A stretch of 64,000 nt of DNA from Pseudomonadota bacterium (GTDB lineage: Bacteria > Pseudomonadota > Gammaproteobacteria > Burkholderiales > Gallionellaceae): assembly GCA_021800795.1 (NCBI GenBank), contig JAJYYO010000016.1, positions 1-64,000 of the forward strand, written 5' to 3'. Both the position numbers and the translations under genes were made by a program. Shown piece by piece: positions 5,750 to 46,612 of the stretch. The notes beneath the pieces are model-generated. The model had not been told where the DNA came from. It was given only the letters and a program-made list of their open reading frames with translations, and searched no databases. The number at the start of each line of letters is the position of its first letter. Within the stretch, counting starts at the first letter, position 1.

Positions 5750-5880
5750 GGTTCAAGTGTGCGTCGTGTGCCCGCCGATAATGCCGTACTACCGCGCAGT
5801 TTGCAAAGATTAAAATGCTGAGCAGTGAGTGGTGAATTTATTTACCGACTCCCGACTTACAACTTACGACTAGCTTCTAA

Positions 5881-5998
5881 CGGGCATGGCGAAGATGCCA
5901 CCCCCGATGATGAATCTCGCCATGCCCGTTTCCCTCACCTCAATCCTCTCCCGGAGGGAGATGAGGCAAACGAATCACTACGCGAATTTCACGTTAAG
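5881..5998. repeat. Dispersed repeat copy B
   Basis: Near match to 130-241. Confidence 0.8.
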
Positions 5999-9439: not shown

Positions 9440-9701
9440 GGTGATTCCAGGAAACGTTTCCTTATATGGCATCGTTGAAGCGCTGGAAATCCAGAGTTTT
9501 GCGAGCATCCACTTCGTGGATTGCCTGCTTAAACCGCTAAGGATGAAGCGCAAGGAGCCGCGCAGCGAATGACGAGACATATCAGAAAGATAGGCGCACC
9601 CGCGAGGAGTAGGCCGTGCGGTACCCGTAGCTCGCGCTACGACCGCTACGCTCAGGGATGGGCGAGCACACTATATTCGCCTAAAATGGTTCTAGCAGGG
9701 A

Positions 9702-18781: not shown

Positions 18782-19135
18782 TCAAGACCTGAGTATAGAC
18801 TCTTCGGTACCGAGAACTTCGCGCAACACTTCCGGATGCATCTCGGCTACGCGCAACAGCGTTTTTGCGGCGCCGGAAGGCTGGCGTCGCCCCTGTTCCC
18901 ATTCCTGTAGCGTGCGCAACGACACCCCCAGCAGACGAGCGAACTGTACTTGCGAAAGTCTGGAAATGACACGGGCCTTAGCCACAGGCGATTCAATCAC
19001 ACGACCATCGCGCGTCACCACTGAGACACGCCCTATTTTCCCGGCCTTCAATTCGTTGATTGATTCAAGCAGTTCAGCGTTCAGGTCACGCTGCGCATCG
19101 CGTGCAAGCAATTCGGTTTCAGATAATTTCGGCAT
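18782..19135 (-). CDS. HigA/MqsA-type HTH antitoxin
   Basis: LSQVQFARLLGVSLRTLQEWEQGRRQPSGAAKTLLRVAEMHPEVL. Confidence 0.85.
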   Translation of the reverse strand: MPKLSETELLARDAQRDLNAELLESINELKAGKIGRVSVVTRDGRVIESPVAKARVISRLSQVQFARLLGVSLRTLQEWEQGRRQPSGAAKTLLRVAEMHPEVLREVLGTEESILRS

Positions 19136-19442
19136 GATCGGCAATTTCCCGCAAAGCATTTAAAGTGGAAGCGGCGATATTCTCTCGCGCGCTCTTGGCA
19201 TACACGGTCAGTAACCATATTCGCCCAAGCGCATCCTGCAAGTAGTACAGGATGCGCACACCGCCGCGCTTACCCATACCCGCACGCGCCCAGCGCATTT
19301 TGCGAACTCCCCTTGTGCCGGGAACCACATCGCCAAGAGCAGGATCCATGGTCAGTGCCATTTGCAAATCAGTCAACTCTGTATCGCTGAGATAATCGGC
19401 AACATAACGTGTAAAAGCAGGCAGTTCGATGAACGTGCACAT
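19119..19442 (-). CDS. RelE/HigB-like toxin
   Basis: MCTFIELPAFTRYVADYLSDTELTDLQMAL...GVRKMRWARAGMGKRGGVRILYYLQ; overlaps the antitoxin gene. Confidence 0.85.
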   Translation of the reverse strand: MCTFIELPAFTRYVADYLSDTELTDLQMALTMDPALGDVVPGTRGVRKMRWARAGMGKRGGVRILYYLQDALGRIWLLTVYAKSARENIAASTLNALREIADHAEII

Positions 19443-19481
19443 ACCGCGCATTATACGTCTTTGACGTATTAAAACAACTAT

Positions 19482-19516: not shown

Positions 19517-19694
19517 GCTATGCCGGTGGCAGACCGGCGGCTGGTTACCTTTGGCTTCGTGCAATTTGCATTTTCGTCTACGCCGAAACTTCGTTTTCTT
19601 GTCTTGCCAAGAAAGGTAACCGAAAGAAATCGCCCCCGGTTTGCCGCGCCTTTGGCGTACCCTCGATAGTCACAAACAAGCGGGGCTGCGCAAC
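19517..19694. repeat. Dispersed repeat R copy 1 (left orientation)
   Basis: ...ggtttgccgcgcctttggcgtaccctcgatagtcacaaacaagcggggctgcgcaac; hairpin arm interrupted by about 45 nt. Confidence 0.8.
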
Positions 19695-19704
19695 CATATC
19701 GCAG

Positions 19705-21063
19705 CTAAGAAATTAAACTCACTGCAGAATGTTTTTTTCTGTGAGTATCAATTACCAATGCAATATTTGACAAGATCGCTTTGAACTCACTGAAATTAAT
19801 TTTATCTGCCTGAGCTCTCACAACCTTCTGTGCAAAGACATGCTTTCCATAGTGCGTGTCACGATCGAAATCATCTTGGTGGCTGAAAGCTTTACCGCCA
19901 ACGATTGTTGACTTGATTACATCATCGAAGAAATCCTCAATCATCGATTCTTTCACCCCATTTTTCAGTGGAGTAGCAACCAAGTAAAGGTTGCCCGTAA
20001 TATGCACGAATGGCTCCGCGCCAGTTACCGTCGTTTTAGCTATGGCTTTCACTGTGTTAAATATACCACCCTTCCCTCTTGCACCTGCATCATTATCGGC
20101 GAGCAAAACTATCGGTTGCTGTGCGCCCGGCGCCTTAAATTTTTTGTACTCACGATCATATAGACGCATAAAATGCGACAGATTGGACACCCCCCCGTTG
20201 ATACCCAGAATTCGACCTGTACTAGTGTCAGAGTATTTGAAGATTCGCATTGCCAATTTGATAGTTCCATCGGTACTCGTTATTGCAAGTTGTGGGAATG
20301 TTGTAACAAGGCTCCGAATCGCATGGAGAATGTATACATTGTCCGTCTTGCCTTCACAAATAATTACCGGGGTTGGCGCTGCATAAAATTCCTTGAACAG
20401 CAGAAATCTGCGATACATCGACTCCTTGCTTGTGGCATTGAATTGGTCTCTTGAATCTTTGCTTTTCGATGCAAGTCTCTCGTTATAAAGATCAACCCCA
20501 TCAATAAAACCCAGCATGCCGTGAAGCTGATTTACTGTGCCCGGTCTCTTATGTATGGTCACAGCACCTTTTTCATCGATCCCCTTATGCACGAATTCAA
20601 AATTGCCTTTGTTAAACAAGTGATGCACCATTGCACGCACAGTACGCCTGTATTCGCTGCGAACATTTACCTTTCTATTAACGATTAACCCAGTCACCTC
20701 CTGACGCGAATCACGATACTGCATTCGAGTCTTAGCAGGGTTCATTTCAAAGCCACTTTTTTTAACCAGCCGCACAAGCTCACTACCAGGATTCCACTTG
20801 TGCTCCTCACCCAAAGCATATTTGGCAATGCATGCAGGAAATTCTGGTTTATTAGTGGAAAAAGTCAGATCGTCCGCGTACCGCGAGTAAGTACAACCGT
20901 TGCGAGATGCAAGCCGAACAAGATGGATATCAAGCACATGACCGATCAAGTTAGAGATAACTGGCGAACATGGACTTCCTTGCGGCAAAACGTTTTCATA
21001 ACACGAAATTTGCGCAAGTACCGTTGCAACATCTGGTTGTAACAAGAAGCTTTTATCCTTCAT
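19705..21063 (-). CDS. Retron reverse transcriptase, C-terminal part (YADD) fused to a TOPRIM-like domain; Ec67/Eco2-like
   Basis: VLPQGSPCSPVISNLIGHVLD; YSRYADDLTFS; TOPRIM-like VIICEGKTDNVYIL and VLLADNDAGARG; continues ORF 21060-21464 in the -1 frame. Confidence 0.85.
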   Translation of the reverse strand: MKDKSFLLQPDVATVLAQISCYENVLPQGSPCSPVISNLIGHVLDIHLVRLASRNGCTYSRYADDLTFSTNKPEFPACIAKYALGEEHKWNPGSELVRLVKKSGFEMNPAKTRMQYRDSRQEVTGLIVNRKVNVRSEYRRTVRAMVHHLFNKGNFEFVHKGIDEKGAVTIHKRPGTVNQLHGMLGFIDGVDLYNERLASKSKDSRDQFNATSKESMYRRFLLFKEFYAAPTPVIICEGKTDNVYILHAIRSLVTTFPQLAITSTDGTIKLAMRIFKYSDTSTGRILGINGGVSNLSHFMRLYDREYKKFKAPGAQQPIVLLADNDAGARGKGGIFNTVKAIAKTTVTGAEPFVHITGNLYLVATPLKNGVKESMIEDFFDDVIKSTIVGGKAFSHQDDFDRDTHYGKHVFAQKVVRAQADKINFSEFKAILSNIALVIDTHRKKHSAVSLIS

Positions 21064-21464
21064 GAAAAATCCGCGAACACGGCCAAAGTTGATACTGCCA
21101 AAAAATCCGCTAAATCTACATTGAAGACATAATTACGGTTGCGATGCTCCTTAGCGTTCGTGATAATCGATCGCTTTCGTTTGAATCCATGAGAAATCTG
21201 GTCGCTAAAACCATGTGTACTATTAATCTCTTCAACGCAATTTTGAAGAAGATCAGACAGTCGTCGCTGAATTAACTTTAGATCTGGAAACGGCGCGCAA
21301 ATTTTACGAGTGCCACCGTATCGTTTTGGTATATCAAACTGCTTGTACTTCGTGGTATCGCTTTTCTTGTACAAGATGAATGAAAGCGCAGATGCTTTAA
21401 AACCCAAAAGAGCTGCCACATCGTGAAGATTCCTCGCAGACTTCAGTTTGATTAGTTGTGTCAT
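21060..21464 (-). CDS. Retron reverse transcriptase, N-terminal part (motif A truncated by frame change)
   Basis: FDIPKRYGGTRKICAPFPDLKLIQRRLSDLLQNC; YVFNVDLADF; the -1 frame reads on as FGSINFGRVRGFFMKDKSF. Confidence 0.85.
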   Translation of the reverse strand: MTQLIKLKSARNLHDVAALLGFKASALSFILYKKSDTTKYKQFDIPKRYGGTRKICAPFPDLKLIQRRLSDLLQNCVEEINSTHGFSDQISHGFKRKRSIITNAKEHRNRNYVFNVDLADFLAVSTLAVFADFS

Positions 21465-21480
21465 TCAGCATCCGAAAGGA

Positions 21481-21620
21481 AGTGGGCCTACAGGCACTCT
21501 TATGCGAGGCAACAGTCACACATATACGTCGCAATGCGGATCAGTGGAGAGCAAACTCCCTACCATTTATTTCAAATGCCGCGAATCGCGGCAAAAGGTC
21601 TGTCTGTAGGCCCGCACACA
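21481..21620 (-). ncRNA. Retron msr-msd RNA (predicted)
   Basis: a1/a2 inverted repeat GGGCCTACAG (21604-21613 and 21484-21493); msr hairpin TGCCGCG-ATT-CGCGGCA (21577-21593); putative msd stem TGCGA/TCGCA; ends 16 nt upstream of the RT ATG. Confidence 0.8.
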
Positions 21621-21745
21621 TATTAACATGCGGACATGTATCGTTGTGTCAAGCTTCACAATCGTATATGCATATCTTGATATGCAATTATAGAAGGTGA
21701 AGATCAATCAGGCATTTTGACGTACTCATTGCAGACTAGTTCATC

Positions 21746-22095
21746 CCCTGTGCGCCGCCGAAGATAGTCAAAAACAAGCGGTGGTGTAAGGCGAGCACTG
21801 TTTGAGTTCCGCAGCGGGGCGCGAGGTGTGCGGCCCGCCAGGGCGAGTTGCGCAGCCCCGCTTGTTTTTGACTATCGAGGGTACGCCAAAGGCGCGGCAA
21901 ACCGGGGTCGCCTTCTTTGGGTTACTTTTCTTGGCGACACAAGAAAAGTGACTAGCCGCCGGGCTACACCCGGCAGTAACATTAACGTGCATATCGCTTC
22001 TTCATTTCAAAAAGTTGGAGAGCGAGACACAACCAATGCTTTGTTTGCTTCGCAGAATATTGATCCTGCTGGATTCCGGCCTTCGCCGGAATGAC
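21746..22095. repeat. Dispersed repeat R copy 2 (right orientation, extended)
   Basis: cccctgtgcgccgccgaagatag...gttgcgcagccccgcttgttttt...ttacttttcttg-gcgaca-caagaaaagt...gccgggctacacccggc; ends with attccggccttcgccggaatgac. Confidence 0.85.
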
Positions 22096-27963: not shown

Positions 27964-28293
27964 TCACGCCCGGTGGTAAATCAGTTCTTCCACGGGCTGC
28001 CCTCCGACCAGATGCTCGGCAATGATGCGATCCAGATTGGCGGGGGTCACGTTGTAATACCAGATGCCATCGGGTTGCACGCACAGTATCGGGCCGGATT
28101 TACAGGTGGCAAAACAGGTGGTGCGCGTGCGCTTGACGCGCGACTCGCCCCCGTCTATTCCGGCCTCTTTGAATTTGTCTCCCAGGCTGTCGAACAGGGC
28201 CTGTGATTCACCTTCCTCGCTGCAACGGGGCCCTACGCACACCAGCAGATGGCGTTTGTAATTCATCATCTTGGGTTTTTCAAGTTCACTCAT
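27964..28293 (-). CDS. Thioredoxin-like (2Fe-2S) ferredoxin
   Basis: HLLVCVGPRCSEEGES; TTCFATCKSGPILCVQPDGIWYYNVTP. Confidence 0.85.
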   Translation of the reverse strand: MSELEKPKMMNYKRHLLVCVGPRCSEEGESQALFDSLGDKFKEAGIDGGESRVKRTRTTCFATCKSGPILCVQPDGIWYYNVTPANLDRIIAEHLVGGQPVEELIYHRA

Positions 28294-30007
28294 GATTCAT
28301 CTCCTGTGGTTCGCCCGGCTTCTGCCAGGACTGTTTGTATCGTTGTATGGATGCATCGTCCTTATTCATCAGGGCAAGCTTGAACACGACTTCACCGTTG
28401 CTGTCGATGAAATACGCGCCATAATTTTTGCCGGCGCGCATCACCAGCCACGCGCGTGCAACCCGGCGCCACTCGACATGCAGATGAAAATGTTCGTTCT
28501 CCACCTTCAATCGGTCACCTGACAGCGCCAGATCTTTGCCTTCCAGCATCATTTCGCTGACGGCATTCCCGCTTCGCACCACCGCGCGCAAACGCCCCCA
28601 GTTGTTCACCTCATTCAATAACTGCGATGCGTCAGCGGCATGCATCGCCGAAAATTCTCCGGCAACATCGTCGGCACTGGCGCCATGAATAGCTGACAAT
28701 ATTTCTTCAAAAGGCATGTCGAAGTATTCGACAACATGCTTCAGGGAGTAATCGGGGAATTCGCGCAGATAACTGCGCACACAGGATTTCCAGCCTATCA
28801 GCCCCATGCCGAGAGAACGTCCGGCTTTTTCGCCTTCCCGCGTCTCCCCGGTCAAGCTGTCATATTTGTTGGCATAGCCGCGCGGCGTGATCATCAGATT
28901 GTCGCGCAAAAAGGTGCTGCTGTTGCCGATCAGCACGGTGGAGAGCATGCCGATATCGCAATCGGCCATCTCGTCCAGTCTGACCATCCGGATCGACTGG
29001 CTCTTGCGGTAGGCCGACTTGACGATGGCAACCGGCGTCTCGGGCTTGCGGTGTTGCAACAGGATGCGCTGCGCCTCGACGATCTGCTTGGTGCGACGAC
29101 CGCTCTTCGGGTTGTACAGCGCCACCACAAAATCCGCGCGCGCCGCCGCCACCAGGCGGTTGGCGATCACCGGCCATGGGGTCAACAGATCCGACAGCGA
29201 GATCGAACAGAAATCATGGGTCAGCGGCGCGCCAACCAGGGATGCGCATGCCGACAAGGCCGTGCTGCCCGTCACGATTTCAACTTCGATGTCACCGCCC
29301 GGCCTCCATCCCGACTGAAACAGCACTTCATAGGTGGGGCCCGCCATGCCGTAAATGCCGATGTCGCCTGAGGAGACCATCGCCACGACCTTGCCCAGTT
29401 TGGCCTGCTCATAAGCTTCGACGCAGCGGTCGATTTCTTCTGTCATGCCTTTGCGTATCACTTCCTTGCCGTCCAGCAAATCCTCCACCAGCTTGATGTA
29501 AGTGGTATAGCCGATCACCACATCCGCGCCGGCAATCGCTTCCCGCGCCCGGTAGGTCATGTCTTCCTTGGAACCCGGGCCGAATCCGACCAGCAGGATT
29601 TTTCCTTTTTTCATTACTTTTATCCTCGCAATTGAAACCGTGGCGTTCTTGCCGTCAACGCCGCAATATTTGTGTTTCTCAACCAGCAGACCTGCCATAT
29701 CGGTATTGGCCGCAAGCATCGCGGCCGCCTCCGCCACAGCGGGCGTGCCCATATATTTTTGCACCACTTGGGAAGGGTTCGGCACCGCAACCGCTGCCAG
29801 CTGCTCTACACTGTAGAACTGCAACGGCCAATGCTGTTGTTCGCCTAACTGCAACAGCGCGACTTCATCGTTCTTCCTGTCTATGCTGGCGCATACCGCT
29901 ACGGCCTGATGCGTCAGCCCTGCCTGCGACAAGGCCTGTGCCACCGCAGTTTGCAGCGTTAGCAATGAAGCGCCTCTGTCGCAGCCTAACCCCAGCGCGA
30001 CACGCAT
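28286..30007 (-). CDS. Fusion: CbiG C-terminal domain - CobJ/CbiH (precorrin-3B C17-methyltransferase) - ChuX/HutX-like domain
   Basis: MRVALGLGCDRGASLLTLQTAV (CbiG_C); KGKILLVGFGPGSKEDMTYRAREAIAGADVVIGY (CobJ); C-terminal about 160 aa with WGRLRAVVRSGNAVSEMMLEG...AYFIDSNGEVVFKLALMNKDD (ChuX/HutX-like). Starts at the TGATG overlap. Confidence 0.85.
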   Translation of the reverse strand: MRVALGLGCDRGASLLTLQTAVAQALSQAGLTHQAVAVCASIDRKNDEVALLQLGEQQHWPLQFYSVEQLAAVAVPNPSQVVQKYMGTPAVAEAAAMLAANTDMAGLLVEKHKYCGVDGKNATVSIARIKVMKKGKILLVGFGPGSKEDMTYRAREAIAGADVVIGYTTYIKLVEDLLDGKEVIRKGMTEEIDRCVEAYEQAKLGKVVAMVSSGDIGIYGMAGPTYEVLFQSGWRPGGDIEVEIVTGSTALSACASLVGAPLTHDFCSISLSDLLTPWPVIANRLVAAARADFVVALYNPKSGRRTKQIVEAQRILLQHRKPETPVAIVKSAYRKSQSIRMVRLDEMADCDIGMLSTVLIGNSSTFLRDNLMITPRGYANKYDSLTGETREGEKAGRSLGMGLIGWKSCVRSYLREFPDYSLKHVVEYFDMPFEEILSAIHGASADDVAGEFSAMHAADASQLLNEVNNWGRLRAVVRSGNAVSEMMLEGKDLALSGDRLKVENEHFHLHVEWRRVARAWLVMRAGKNYGAYFIDSNGEVVFKLALMNKDDASIQRYKQSWQKPGEPQEMNHE

Positions 30008-30744
30008 CACAGATAATCCACGGGCGGCCGATACACCACCAGGCGCTCGGACAGTCGCTGCCGGATGTCTTCCGGAATATCGCGGCGCGTCACCCACAAC
30101 ACCGCGCGGAAGGCATCCAGATCCACCTCTGCAAAATTGCTGAATAATTTGATGTTGGCAGGCAGCGGCGTGGGCCGCGTCCACCAGTTTTTGGCGCCCG
30201 CTTCCTGCACGAAAGCGATGGGTTCTTCATTCACCACAGCGGCCGAGACGCGCGTGATGTTGATCTTCGGGCATTCAACCTGCCAGCCCAGTTCGCGCCC
30301 GAGTATGTCCACAGCGATGGTTTTTCCCACATCCGATGCCGTGGTCAGCACCGGCACTGCGCCCAGCAAGGCTGCCACCTGTTCGGCATAGGCATTCGCG
30401 CCGCCCACATGCCCCGACAAGACAGGGATGACGAACTGCGCGGCGTCATCCACCACCAGCACGCCGGGGTCTTCATCCTTGGATTTGAGGTGCGGTGCAA
30501 TCAGCCGCACCACGGCGCCCAGCGACACGAAAAATACGATCTGGTCGAAGGCCTGAAACAAGGCGGCGATCTGCGCGCTCAGCGCCCCCTGATAGGCTTG
30601 CACAGGATTGGTCAGGCCCTGCATGGTCGCCGCGAACTTTTCCGACACAACAACGCTGGCAGCGGGCAGTTGCGGCGCCAATTGCCGTGCGCGCGCTGCG
30701 CCATGCTTGGTGATTGCGATGAGGGCTACGCGCGGCTCTGTCAT
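30007..30744 (-). CDS. cbiG: CbiG, N-terminal and central domains (split CbiG)
   Basis: VALIAITKHGAARARQLA; SLGAVVRLIAPHLKSKDEDPGVLVVDDAAQFVIPVLSGHVGGANAYAEQVA. Confidence 0.9.
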   Translation of the reverse strand: MTEPRVALIAITKHGAARARQLAPQLPAASVVVSEKFAATMQGLTNPVQAYQGALSAQIAALFQAFDQIVFFVSLGAVVRLIAPHLKSKDEDPGVLVVDDAAQFVIPVLSGHVGGANAYAEQVAALLGAVPVLTTASDVGKTIAVDILGRELGWQVECPKINITRVSAAVVNEEPIAFVQEAGAKNWWTRPTPLPANIKLFSNFAEVDLDAFRAVLWVTRRDIPEDIRQRLSERLVVYRPPVDYL

Positions 30745-41817: not shown

Positions 41818-42067
41818 GATGATTTCCTGAGTAAATTCCAAGTGTCCCCGTTGGAATGTTGTAAATCAGGAAATACTGCGGGTGAAATGACTTCTACAAA
41901 GACCTCCGCGGAACGTAGCGAGCGAAGCTGAGGCAAGGCAAAAAATGAAGAGAAACCGGAATGTACTTTTCGTACATGAGGATTTCGATTCATTTTTTAA
42001 CGCTGGATCAGCAAGCGTAGTAGTTATGCGAAGGTCTTTCGATGCGCCGCCCGCAGCATCTCCTGTA

Positions 42068-42262
42068 CCTATGCTTTCAGGCCGGTATCCGGGCTCACGA
42101 GTCTTGATTTGCCGCCTTCCCATGATTGCTCACAGTGGCATATTGGCAAACCCACACTCGACGACCGTTGCGGGGGCAGCTCAGGCTTTGTTGTATTTTT
42201 CAGGAGATGGCAAGTCCGCAAAACGAACTTTCTCCGGTACAACGCACCTGCTTCCCGTTTAA
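42068..42262 (-). ncRNA. Cobalamin riboswitch upstream of btuB
   Basis: Minus strand: ...GAGCTGCCCCCGCAACGGTCGTCGAGTGTGG...GCCACTGTGAGCAATCATGGGAAGGCGGCAAATCAAGACTCGTGAGCCCGGATACCGGCCT. Confidence 0.92.
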
Positions 42263-42409
42263 CTAGACTGCATAACAGTCTTAGCACCTCAAAGCTGCAT
42301 ACACTTTACCACGGGTATCAACCTCGTGCCAAACGACGATTTACAAAATGCATTTACAAGCCTGTCTTAGCATTTGACTTTCCAGCACTTTTCAAACTAT
42401 ATTACTGTC

Positions 42410-42924: not shown

Positions 42925-43110
42925 GTTCGGTTTGTCCCCTGCGGTGTTCGTCAGGCTCATATATTCTTTGAACCAAGTAACTTTACAGGTCGCGACTCAT
43001 ACGCCGTTGTTGTGAACGTCCCTTGCGGATGATCCTGATATGGCAGGGAAGTGACCCTCTTGAACCTTAAGGTTCGAGATGCTGGGTCAACGGCACAGGC
43101 GGGGGGCTTT
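42925..43110 (+). ncRNA. ssrS: 6S RNA (ssrS), approximate bounds
   Basis: Position downstream of zapA; tcccctgcggtgttcgtcagg...tttgaaccaagtaac...ccttgcggatgatcctgatatggcagggaa. Confidence 0.65.
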
Positions 43111-44400: not shown

Positions 44401-44745
44401 CCAAATGCCGCAAGGGCATTCCCACGAAATATAGACGATAAGACCGCCTTATTTCTGAATGAACAGTGTTGGCTCAGACATTTATTGTATTTTTTGATTC
44501 GCCGAAACTGTTGCTACACTTTGCGTAGCAACATGTTTTCGCCTACCGCCGCTACGCCTATCTTCGGCGGCGCACATGGGGGATGGGGATAACACTAAAA
44601 GAGTACATGCAACGACTACAGACCCCGTGAACTTATGACTGCCCGATACCGGAACTTCATGATGTTCCGTTCGCGAGACACAACCGACCTTCAAGGCTGA
44701 ACATGTGAGCGACGGTTTTACTTCTGACAGCACCCCATCAGCATA

Positions 44746-44836
44746 TAGCCCGGAAGCAGCGTAGCGGAATCCGGGGTTTCGATGTGCCGAGCTTCCCGGA
44801 TTTCATTTCATTGCATCCGGGCTACGCTGGCTGCCG
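44746..44836. repeat. BOX-like inverted element (tagcccggaagcagcgtag ... catccgggctacgctgg)
   Basis: Arms AGCCCGGA/TCCGGGCT. Confidence 0.6.
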
Positions 44837-45482
44837 GAGTTGTTTCATGAGCAACAGCAGCCACTGGAACTGAAGCAGCAAAATGAGATGGGAAATATGG
44901 AATTGCTCCAAAAATCACGCCAACCACACCAGCAGCGAAACTTGCAATAGTCAGACCCCACATCCATTTTTCTTTCCGTCGATTCGTAGCATTCAAGTCC
45001 TGCAACTGTGACGCCAGAGGTTGCATAAGAAGGTCTTTATCTTGCCCAATGGATTCTCTTATGCGTTCAAGGTGCAAACGAACATCAGAAGGCAACCCTT
45101 CAAACGGCTCATCCTTTTCGAGTTCTTCGTACAACCCCTGAAAATATTTTATCCTTAATTCTCGTTGCTCATCACCCGCCTTAACTGCCTCTGAAAATTG
45201 ATTTCTCAAAAGGATTTGTGTATCGCGTGAAGTAAGACGGTAATCAGTAGCAAGAATTTCAATTTGTTTTCTTGTAAGCGGTGTTTTTGCATGTGCTGAA
45301 GCAATAAGTTCGCCAACTGTCATTCGCCGTCGCCGCTTCGCAATCTCATCAATGACCATTGGCACAATCAACAATACACCGACATAGACTACTACAACCA
45401 AGATAACAAATACAATCGCAGTTAACTCTTTCAAAGTAATGGCTCCAAAACTAAGGGGCTGCGCGCTTTTACGCTGCCCCAT
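44808..45482 (-). CDS. Uncharacterised membrane protein with cytoplasmic helical region
   Basis: N-terminal TM (LTAIVFVILVVVVYVGVLLIVPMVI), charged helical middle, second TM near the C-terminus. Confidence 0.65.
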   Translation of the reverse strand: MGQRKSAQPLSFGAITLKELTAIVFVILVVVVYVGVLLIVPMVIDEIAKRRRRMTVGELIASAHAKTPLTRKQIEILATDYRLTSRDTQILLRNQFSEAVKAGDEQRELRIKYFQGLYEELEKDEPFEGLPSDVRLHLERIRESIGQDKDLLMQPLASQLQDLNATNRRKEKWMWGLTIASFAAGVVGVIFGAIPYFPSHFAASVPVAAVAHETTPAASVARMQ

Positions 45483-45524
45483 TTGACTGTTAAGTTATTC
45501 TGAACGAGCAACGCACGACTGTTA

Positions 45525-45986
45525 TCAATAACCAGTGTATGGATCACGGCCTTGCCCTGTATACATTATTCCAGCAGACTCCCAAGTGCTGTCCGTGTAA
45601 CTGCTCTTGCATGCTTTGCACTCCCAATAGCCATCACCACCTCCCTGAAGCCTGATTAACTCTTTGTTTTTGTCATAGCAGAGCTGACAAAATGGGCCAT
45701 CTTTTCGAGTACCTTCGATTAACCAATAGCATGGTTTTTCCCATTGAATTTTTCCTCTTACTGTCAGCTGCTCAGTAGCAGCTCTGATTTCAGCATCTTT
45801 TTCAATGATGATTTGCTGAATTTCCGCTATCTGTATCTTGGCATCTGCGAGTGCGGAGATGAGGTCTGCCAATTTTAGTTTTGATTCAGCCTTTTCAAGA
45901 GATACGTCGCTTTCCTTGATAAGCTTGGCAATTTCTGTTGCTGTTTTAATGCTGCTAAGAGCAGCTGAAATAGAGGCCATATCCAT
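45525..45986 (-). CDS. Uncharacterised coiled-coil plus zinc-ribbon protein
   Basis: N-terminal coiled coil; CQLCYDKN...YWECKACKSSY. Confidence 0.65.
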   Translation of the reverse strand: MDMASISAALSSIKTATEIAKLIKESDVSLEKAESKLKLADLISALADAKIQIAEIQQIIIEKDAEIRAATEQLTVRGKIQWEKPCYWLIEGTRKDGPFCQLCYDKNKELIRLQGGGDGYWECKACKSSYTDSTWESAGIMYTGQGRDPYTGY

Positions 45987-46223
45987 GAAAAATCCTTATG
46001 CCTAACGCAAAGCAATCACCAAAAAACTTAATTTTGAGTTTGACAGGTAGCTGTGCTATTTAAAAAACATTTATATCAATGATCAGCATATTTTCAGCAT
46101 GCCTCATTTACAAACAATGAACATCCGAAACACGCCTTGAACATTGATTGAACTGTACCACCTCTGTTTATATGTAGGTAAAGAAATTGCAGGGGCCAGT
46201 TACGCACAGCAAATTTTCGCTTC

Positions 46224-46612
46224 TTCCCCCTGTGCGCCGCCGAAGATAGGCGCAAACAAGCGGTGATTTTAGGCGAGCACTGTCTGAGTTCCGCAGCGGT
46301 GCGCGGTGTGTGCGCTCCGCCAGGGCGAGTTGCGCAGCCCCGCTTGTTTGTGACTATCGAGGGTACGCCGCAGGCGCGGCAAACCGGGGTCGCCTTTTCT
46401 TTCGCTGCTTTCTTTTGGCGAGGCAAAAGAAAGCAGCCAGCCGCCGGGCTGCCCCCGGCAAAAAATTAAACGTGCATATCGTTTTTTCGTGTCCTCAAAC
46501 TTCTAAGAGCGAGACTTAACAACTGCTTGGTCCGCTTCGCGGAGTATATTTTTAGCTGGATTCCCGCTTGGCCGCAAGCTCGAAACTTCTCTGCGCTCGT
46601 TTTCGCGGGAAT
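46224..46612. repeat. Dispersed repeat R copy 4 (right orientation, extended)
   Basis: ccctgtgcgccgccgaagatag...gttgcgcagccccgcttgtttgtgactatcgagggtacgccgcaggcgcggcaaaccggggtcgcc...GCTGCTTTCTTTTG-GCGAGG-CAAAAGAAAGCAGC. Confidence 0.85.

Follow-up and report, generated by a model that had tools for sequence, protein, structure and literature searches.

On the minus strand of the 64,000-nt stretch of DNA analyzed here (referred to as the window), a gene encoding an RT with a fused TOPRIM domain extends from position 21464 to 19705; its neighbors are cobT to one side and, to the other, cimA along with a RelE/HTH pair. Upstream of it lies a retron RNA (msr-msd; 21479-21619, minus strand). ORF1 (21060-21464, minus strand, 134 aa) comprises the N-terminal part of the RT up to motif A, i.e., residues 1-121 when the protein is read through a frameshift, followed by an out-of-frame tail. 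The frame of ORF2 (19705-21102, minus strand) encodes the remaining RT and, fused to it without interruption, the TOPRIM domain; it terminates with a TAG stop codon (19707-19705), yields 452 aa when read from its first ATG at 21063 to 19705, and is open further upstream. A one-base frameshift at a run of six T (21105-21100), within the site GATTTTTTG (21099-21107, minus strand) in RT motif A (DFF-G-SIN), interrupts the gene, and a single continuous RT-TOPRIM frame is accordingly absent from the assembly. With both frames joined, the product is 586 aa long. The first-pass annotation of this DNA had listed the RT motifs PQGSPCSPVISN and YSRYADDLTFS as well as the TOPRIM motifs VIICEGKTDNVYI and VLLADNDAGA, which were all recovered in the two ORFs (21464-21060 and 21063-19705, minus strand); the frameshift was only implied there by the word 'rejoined'.

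Affiliation of the RT-TOPRIM Protein to the Ec67/Eco2 Retrons

Both parts of the gene were assigned to the same protein family. ORF2 alone matched the NCBIfam model retron_Ec67_fus (NF038237) with 517.6 bits (model positions 136-571, E=3.8e-155; cut-off of the model, 450 bits), and ORF1 matched positions 2-123 of this model (E=1.2e-46). PADLOC assigned the protein to RT-Toprim_I-C with 544 bits, the next type reaching 201 bits. Among solved structures in the PDB, the Ec67/Eco2 protein ranked first (E=1.3e-126, residues 4-569), followed by Ec86 (2.6e-32). Eco2 from E. coli S10 (PDB 9i2f, 9i2g, 9s1f, 9lm3) is likewise a single RT-TOPRIM polypeptide of 586 aa and has the YADD and VTG motifs, the TOPRIM glutamate and the DxD motif in common with the protein studied here, which is nevertheless clearly diverged from it (426 bits over the full length) and, unlike Eco2, is encoded by a gene split by a frameshift. 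In the phylogenetic tree, which includes one stray row in a wrongly chosen frame (L023), the protein grouped with two retrons from metagenome-assembled genomes (MAGs; L039 and L040, support 99/98) within the RT-Toprim (I-C) group holding Eco2, and was placed apart from the other retrons of the order. Membership in the group II or DGR class was rejected, since the RT does not group with either of the corresponding RTs of the host included in the tree, a group II RT (L005) and a DGR-like RT (L007). The Ec67/Eco2-like identity proposed at first reading thus stood up to the family models and to the tree.

Three further RTs were detected in the host genome: a second retron-type RT on contig C12 (L006:405-1562; PADLOC RT_III-A, 485 bits) with a possible RNA just upstream, a DGR-like RT on contig C2 (L007:1267-2631; GNLSSQ...YVDD), and a group II intron RT on contig C62 (L005:1117-2475).

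The RT is of the retron class, featuring YADD and retron-specific motifs, with its halves in two frames. Residues described as important in Eco2 (PMC12405507) were checked in an alignment of the retron protein, its relatives and Eco2, and the RT catalytic residues as well as nearly all testable TOPRIM catalytic residues were found to be kept. The catalytic YADD occupies residues 196-199 (20869-20880, minus strand). The TOPRIM glutamate is E371 (Eco2 E374; 20353-20355, minus strand), and the DxD motif is represented by D457 and D459 (Eco2 D460/D462; 20089-20097, minus strand), conserved together with D375 and E510. Accordingly, Eco2 F46, R56, K66, R70, YADD, K245, R247, S253 and H281 have counterparts in the retron protein, as do the Eco2 TOPRIM residues E374, D378, D460, D462 and E515. 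Eco2 T249 is replaced by Q, likewise in most relatives, and Eco2 S513 (metal B) by Met, in a column that varies across the family. In the numbering used here, the S10 protein has Asp at position 562, so that the published catalytic lysine K562 could not be placed.

The msr-msd RNA and Its Covariation among Relatives

The core of the retron RNA is bounded by the inverted repeats a1 (GGGCCTACAG; 21604-21613, minus strand) and a2 (CTGTAGGCCC; 21484-21493, minus strand). As noted in the first-pass annotation, these are perfect complements of each other over 10 bp (21613-21604 / 21493-21484), and 100 shuffles gave an expectation of 0 such repeats at that spacing. The end of a2 is 19 nt away from the ATG at 21464 and not 16 nt, as had been stated. 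Between the two repeats, the perfect 7-bp hairpin TGCCGCG-ATT-CGCGGCA (21577-21593, minus strand), also seen at first reading, forms the msr stem-loop and is backed by sequence, fold and covariation. The region 21619-21478 was predicted to fold with -50.9 kcal/mol (z -2.8). Corresponding architectures were found in the upstream regions of all 32 relatives analyzed, each featuring an a1/a2 helix of 8-14 bp around about 97-122 nt, mostly located 2-36 nt ahead of the start codon.

A covariance model (R1) was built from 30 aligned relatives, with this locus and Ec67 left out. It matched 21619-21479 with 101.3 bits (E=3.2e-28). The RNA of Ec67 from E. coli S10 was matched as well, with 76.9 bits (E=5e-21), bearing out the likeness to the Ec67 RNA noted at first reading. 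No further match was obtained in 115 kb of sequence including other retrons and other RTs, and within the whole host genome 21619-21479 was the sole match. Since no E. coli genome was matched by blastn with the RNA as query, the RNA is diverged from that of Ec67 at the nucleotide level, and recognizing their likeness required the covariance model. A scan with Rfam at the gathering threshold reported no retron RNA in the whole 64,000-nt window.

Among the relatives, compensatory changes were observed in 17 of the 22 base pairs of the RNA. In total, 134 cells with both sides changed were counted versus a mean of 41 in shuffled alignments (0 of 500 as high), and slid controls did not exceed 27. 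This strong signal is carried by the a1/a2 and msr helices, with six of the seven pairs of the msr hairpin (helix 2) showing compensatory changes. The TGCGA/TCGCA stem proposed at first reading turned out not to be a feature of the family. The sole conserved pairs flanking the msd are those of a 3-bp UGC/GCA contact showing no compensatory changes, and since this contact is nearly invariant, covariation neither supports nor contradicts a third helix.

In common with the Eco2 RNA are the upstream position, a1/a2, the AGA branch site, and the AATGG and (A/G)GAGTGCC elements. In Eco2, the branching guanosine is rG15, and the msDNA is 67 nt long, with dC67 templated by rG52 (PMC12405507). By alignment to rG15 and the invariant AGA after a1, the branching guanosine is predicted at 21600 (minus strand). 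Following the Eco2 register, the msd template would span 21498-21564 (minus strand), the msDNA having its 3' end at 21564 and its 5' end at 21498; of these 67 nt, 63 nt up to 21502 were computed and the last 4 nt were taken from the length of the Eco2 msDNA. Both the branch site and the msDNA length are, hence, homology-based predictions. On these sequence features, the upstream region is assigned as an msr-msd RNA with a1/a2 pairing and a putative branch G.

Considering the protein and RNA evidence together, the minus-strand locus 21464-19705 is, with a probability of roughly 0.93, a retron of the Ec67/Eco2 kind (type I-C), in which RT and TOPRIM effector belong to one protein. The broken frame lowers the claim of a working copy, not that of Ec67/Eco2 descent.

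Nature of the Frameshift in RT Motif A

At the frameshift site, 32 of 32 relatives are in frame, with varied codons. The dN/dS values determined against L039 were 0.10 before the frameshift, 0.06 for the remaining RT part, and 0.11 for the TOPRIM domain (about 0.09 overall), values that are rough as synonymous sites are near saturation. The retron gene has been under strong purifying selection in the past, and the low values on both sides of the frameshift indicate that the lesion arose long after the divergence from L039. A recent inactivation of this retron copy is considered the most likely explanation, at somewhat better than even odds. As the gene is split in motif A, no complete RT and, hence, no msDNA should be expected from the copy as assembled.

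The chief alternative, to which we assign a substantial but smaller probability, is that the T run was missequenced or misassembled, in which case the host would have an intact, working type I-C retron. The site is a homopolymer, the lesion is the only one in a gene with purifying selection on both sides and intact catalytic residues, and free TOPRIM is toxic in Eco2 (PMC12405507), which disfavors a split gene with a translatable TOPRIM part. However, a run of six T is short, and the assembly is 99.99% complete with 0.22% contamination. Moreover, none of 75 reading frames of two congeners (antisense included) compared with the window was split between frames, suggesting that the base calls are probably good and slightly favoring a real inactivation over an error.

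It appears very improbable that T TTT TTG represents a programmed -1 frameshift site providing full-length RT-TOPRIM at a low, regulated rate, where the slip would set the ratio of RT fragment to full-length protein and thereby tune the toxic effector. The heptamer conforms to the slippery pattern X XXY YYZ, and the shift goes in the right direction, but the 32 relatives have one frame with varied codons at this position, the downstream RNA does not exceed shuffled sequences in structure (z +0.65 and +1.26), and an upstream Shine-Dalgarno-like stimulator is not visible. Programmed frameshifting was therefore rejected for lack of both a downstream stimulating structure and conservation.

Genomic Context and Distribution of the Retron

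A copy of a dispersed repeat (21740-22000, minus strand; 26 matches in the host genome) is located upstream of the retron and is not part of it, and an inverted, partial copy of 101 bp follows downstream (19594-19694, plus strand). The repeat is about 235 bp long, intergenic, and was found in most congeners. The assumption of an RT from a different class (group II intron or DGR) and of an inverted repeat that arose by chance or as part of this element, which indeed flanks the retron on both sides, has a negligible probability given the lead of the retron families by hundreds of bits, the tree placement, the match of the RNA model, and the location of the RNA (21479-21619) outside the repeat match at 21740-22000.

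The idea that these flanking repeats mobilize the retron was rejected: the element belongs to an intergenic family spread across the genus, with 26 matches in this genome alone, and the retrons L039-L044 are without homology in their flanks. Capture of the retron by way of the repeats is, accordingly, possible but unsupported. Besides the pair 21740-22000/19594-19694 enclosing the retron, the window contains a second inverted pair (44232-44405/46227-46484) around another accessory cargo, namely two ORFs of 224 and 153 aa (44405-46227) whose function was not assigned. Further short dispersed repeats (122-241, 5877-5997, and 9540-9655) are common to congeners at many places.

The order cobU-cobT is kept in congeners, while cimA and the toxin-antitoxin genes are absent there within 1.5 kb downstream of cobT; consequently, no clean empty site could be shown. 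The genes adjoining the retron at 18782-19451 encode a RelE-family toxin and an HTH (MqsA/NadS-like) antitoxin, and this pair is located between direct repeats of 40 nt (18724/19477, 88%) and 22 nt (18663/19673, 100%). In the cobalamin cluster, the ORF 28286-30184 represents an unusual-looking fusion of a CbiG C-terminal domain, CobJ (precorrin-3B methyltransferase), and a HemS/ChuX-like domain. A cobalamin riboswitch (42063-42306, minus strand) and a 6S RNA (42933-43109, plus strand) were detected above the Rfam threshold.

The nearest relatives are the two MAG retrons, LNFF01000035.1 (L039) and JAKFXX010000004.1 (L040), labelled Gammaproteobacteria, with 78% protein identity, 76% DNA identity (from exactly a1 to the gene end) and the same RNA; they differ from the present copy in having an intact reading frame and other neighboring genes. 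The same differences apply to the retron of HGW-Betaproteobacteria-4 (L041), which is 62% identical and has an identical a1/a2 sequence. DNA homology to L039 and L040 extends from a1 to close to the gene end, and for L039-L044 no homology beyond this section was found. This confinement, together with the unrelated neighbors of L039, L040 and L041, indicates a compact accessory unit. The retron was not matched in the sampled congeners. The best match among annotated phages was 35% identical, and viral contigs reached 41-46%, which leaves no close phage-borne copy; whereas Ec67 in S10 adjoins phage portal and terminase genes, the retron described here is not located beside phage genes.

Proposed Mechanism and Significance

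For an intact copy, a mode of action following that of Eco2 is proposed. The transcript would fold with a1 and a2 paired, and the RT would bind the msr hairpin and synthesize DNA primed by the 2'-OH of the branching guanosine (21600 in the present locus). Copying of the msd would result in a 67-nt msDNA remaining attached to the msr RNA, and the RNA and DNA together would keep RT-TOPRIM in an inactive assembly. In Eco2, the TOPRIM RNase is released once the msDNA comes under attack by a phage nuclease such as DenB (PMC12405507); correspondingly, attack on the msDNA by a phage nuclease would free TOPRIM, which would cut RNA and stop phage growth. This mechanism (PMC12405507) applies with high probability to the intact relatives. 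As for the present locus, the branch site, msDNA length, trigger and RNase action are all deduced from Eco2, and an anti-phage role is suggested by its affiliation to the Ec67/Eco2 kind.

The first-pass annotation had proposed the locus as a useful comparator. It does add a diverged betaproteobacterial Ec67-type retron to the already known family, but this value was overstated, as the gene is split and many relatives with msr/msd are already present in public genomes, several of them annotated as 'retron Ec67 family'. The known picture of how Ec67-type retrons work is unchanged by our findings. Together with its relatives, the locus yields a model of type I-C msr-msd RNAs, supported by covariation, by which both Ec67 and the present copy are recognized. 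The shared retron unit is delimited to just the section between a1 and the gene end. Should the frameshift prove real, the copy would represent an example of retron decay; if it is an isolated assembly error, the retron would be intact.
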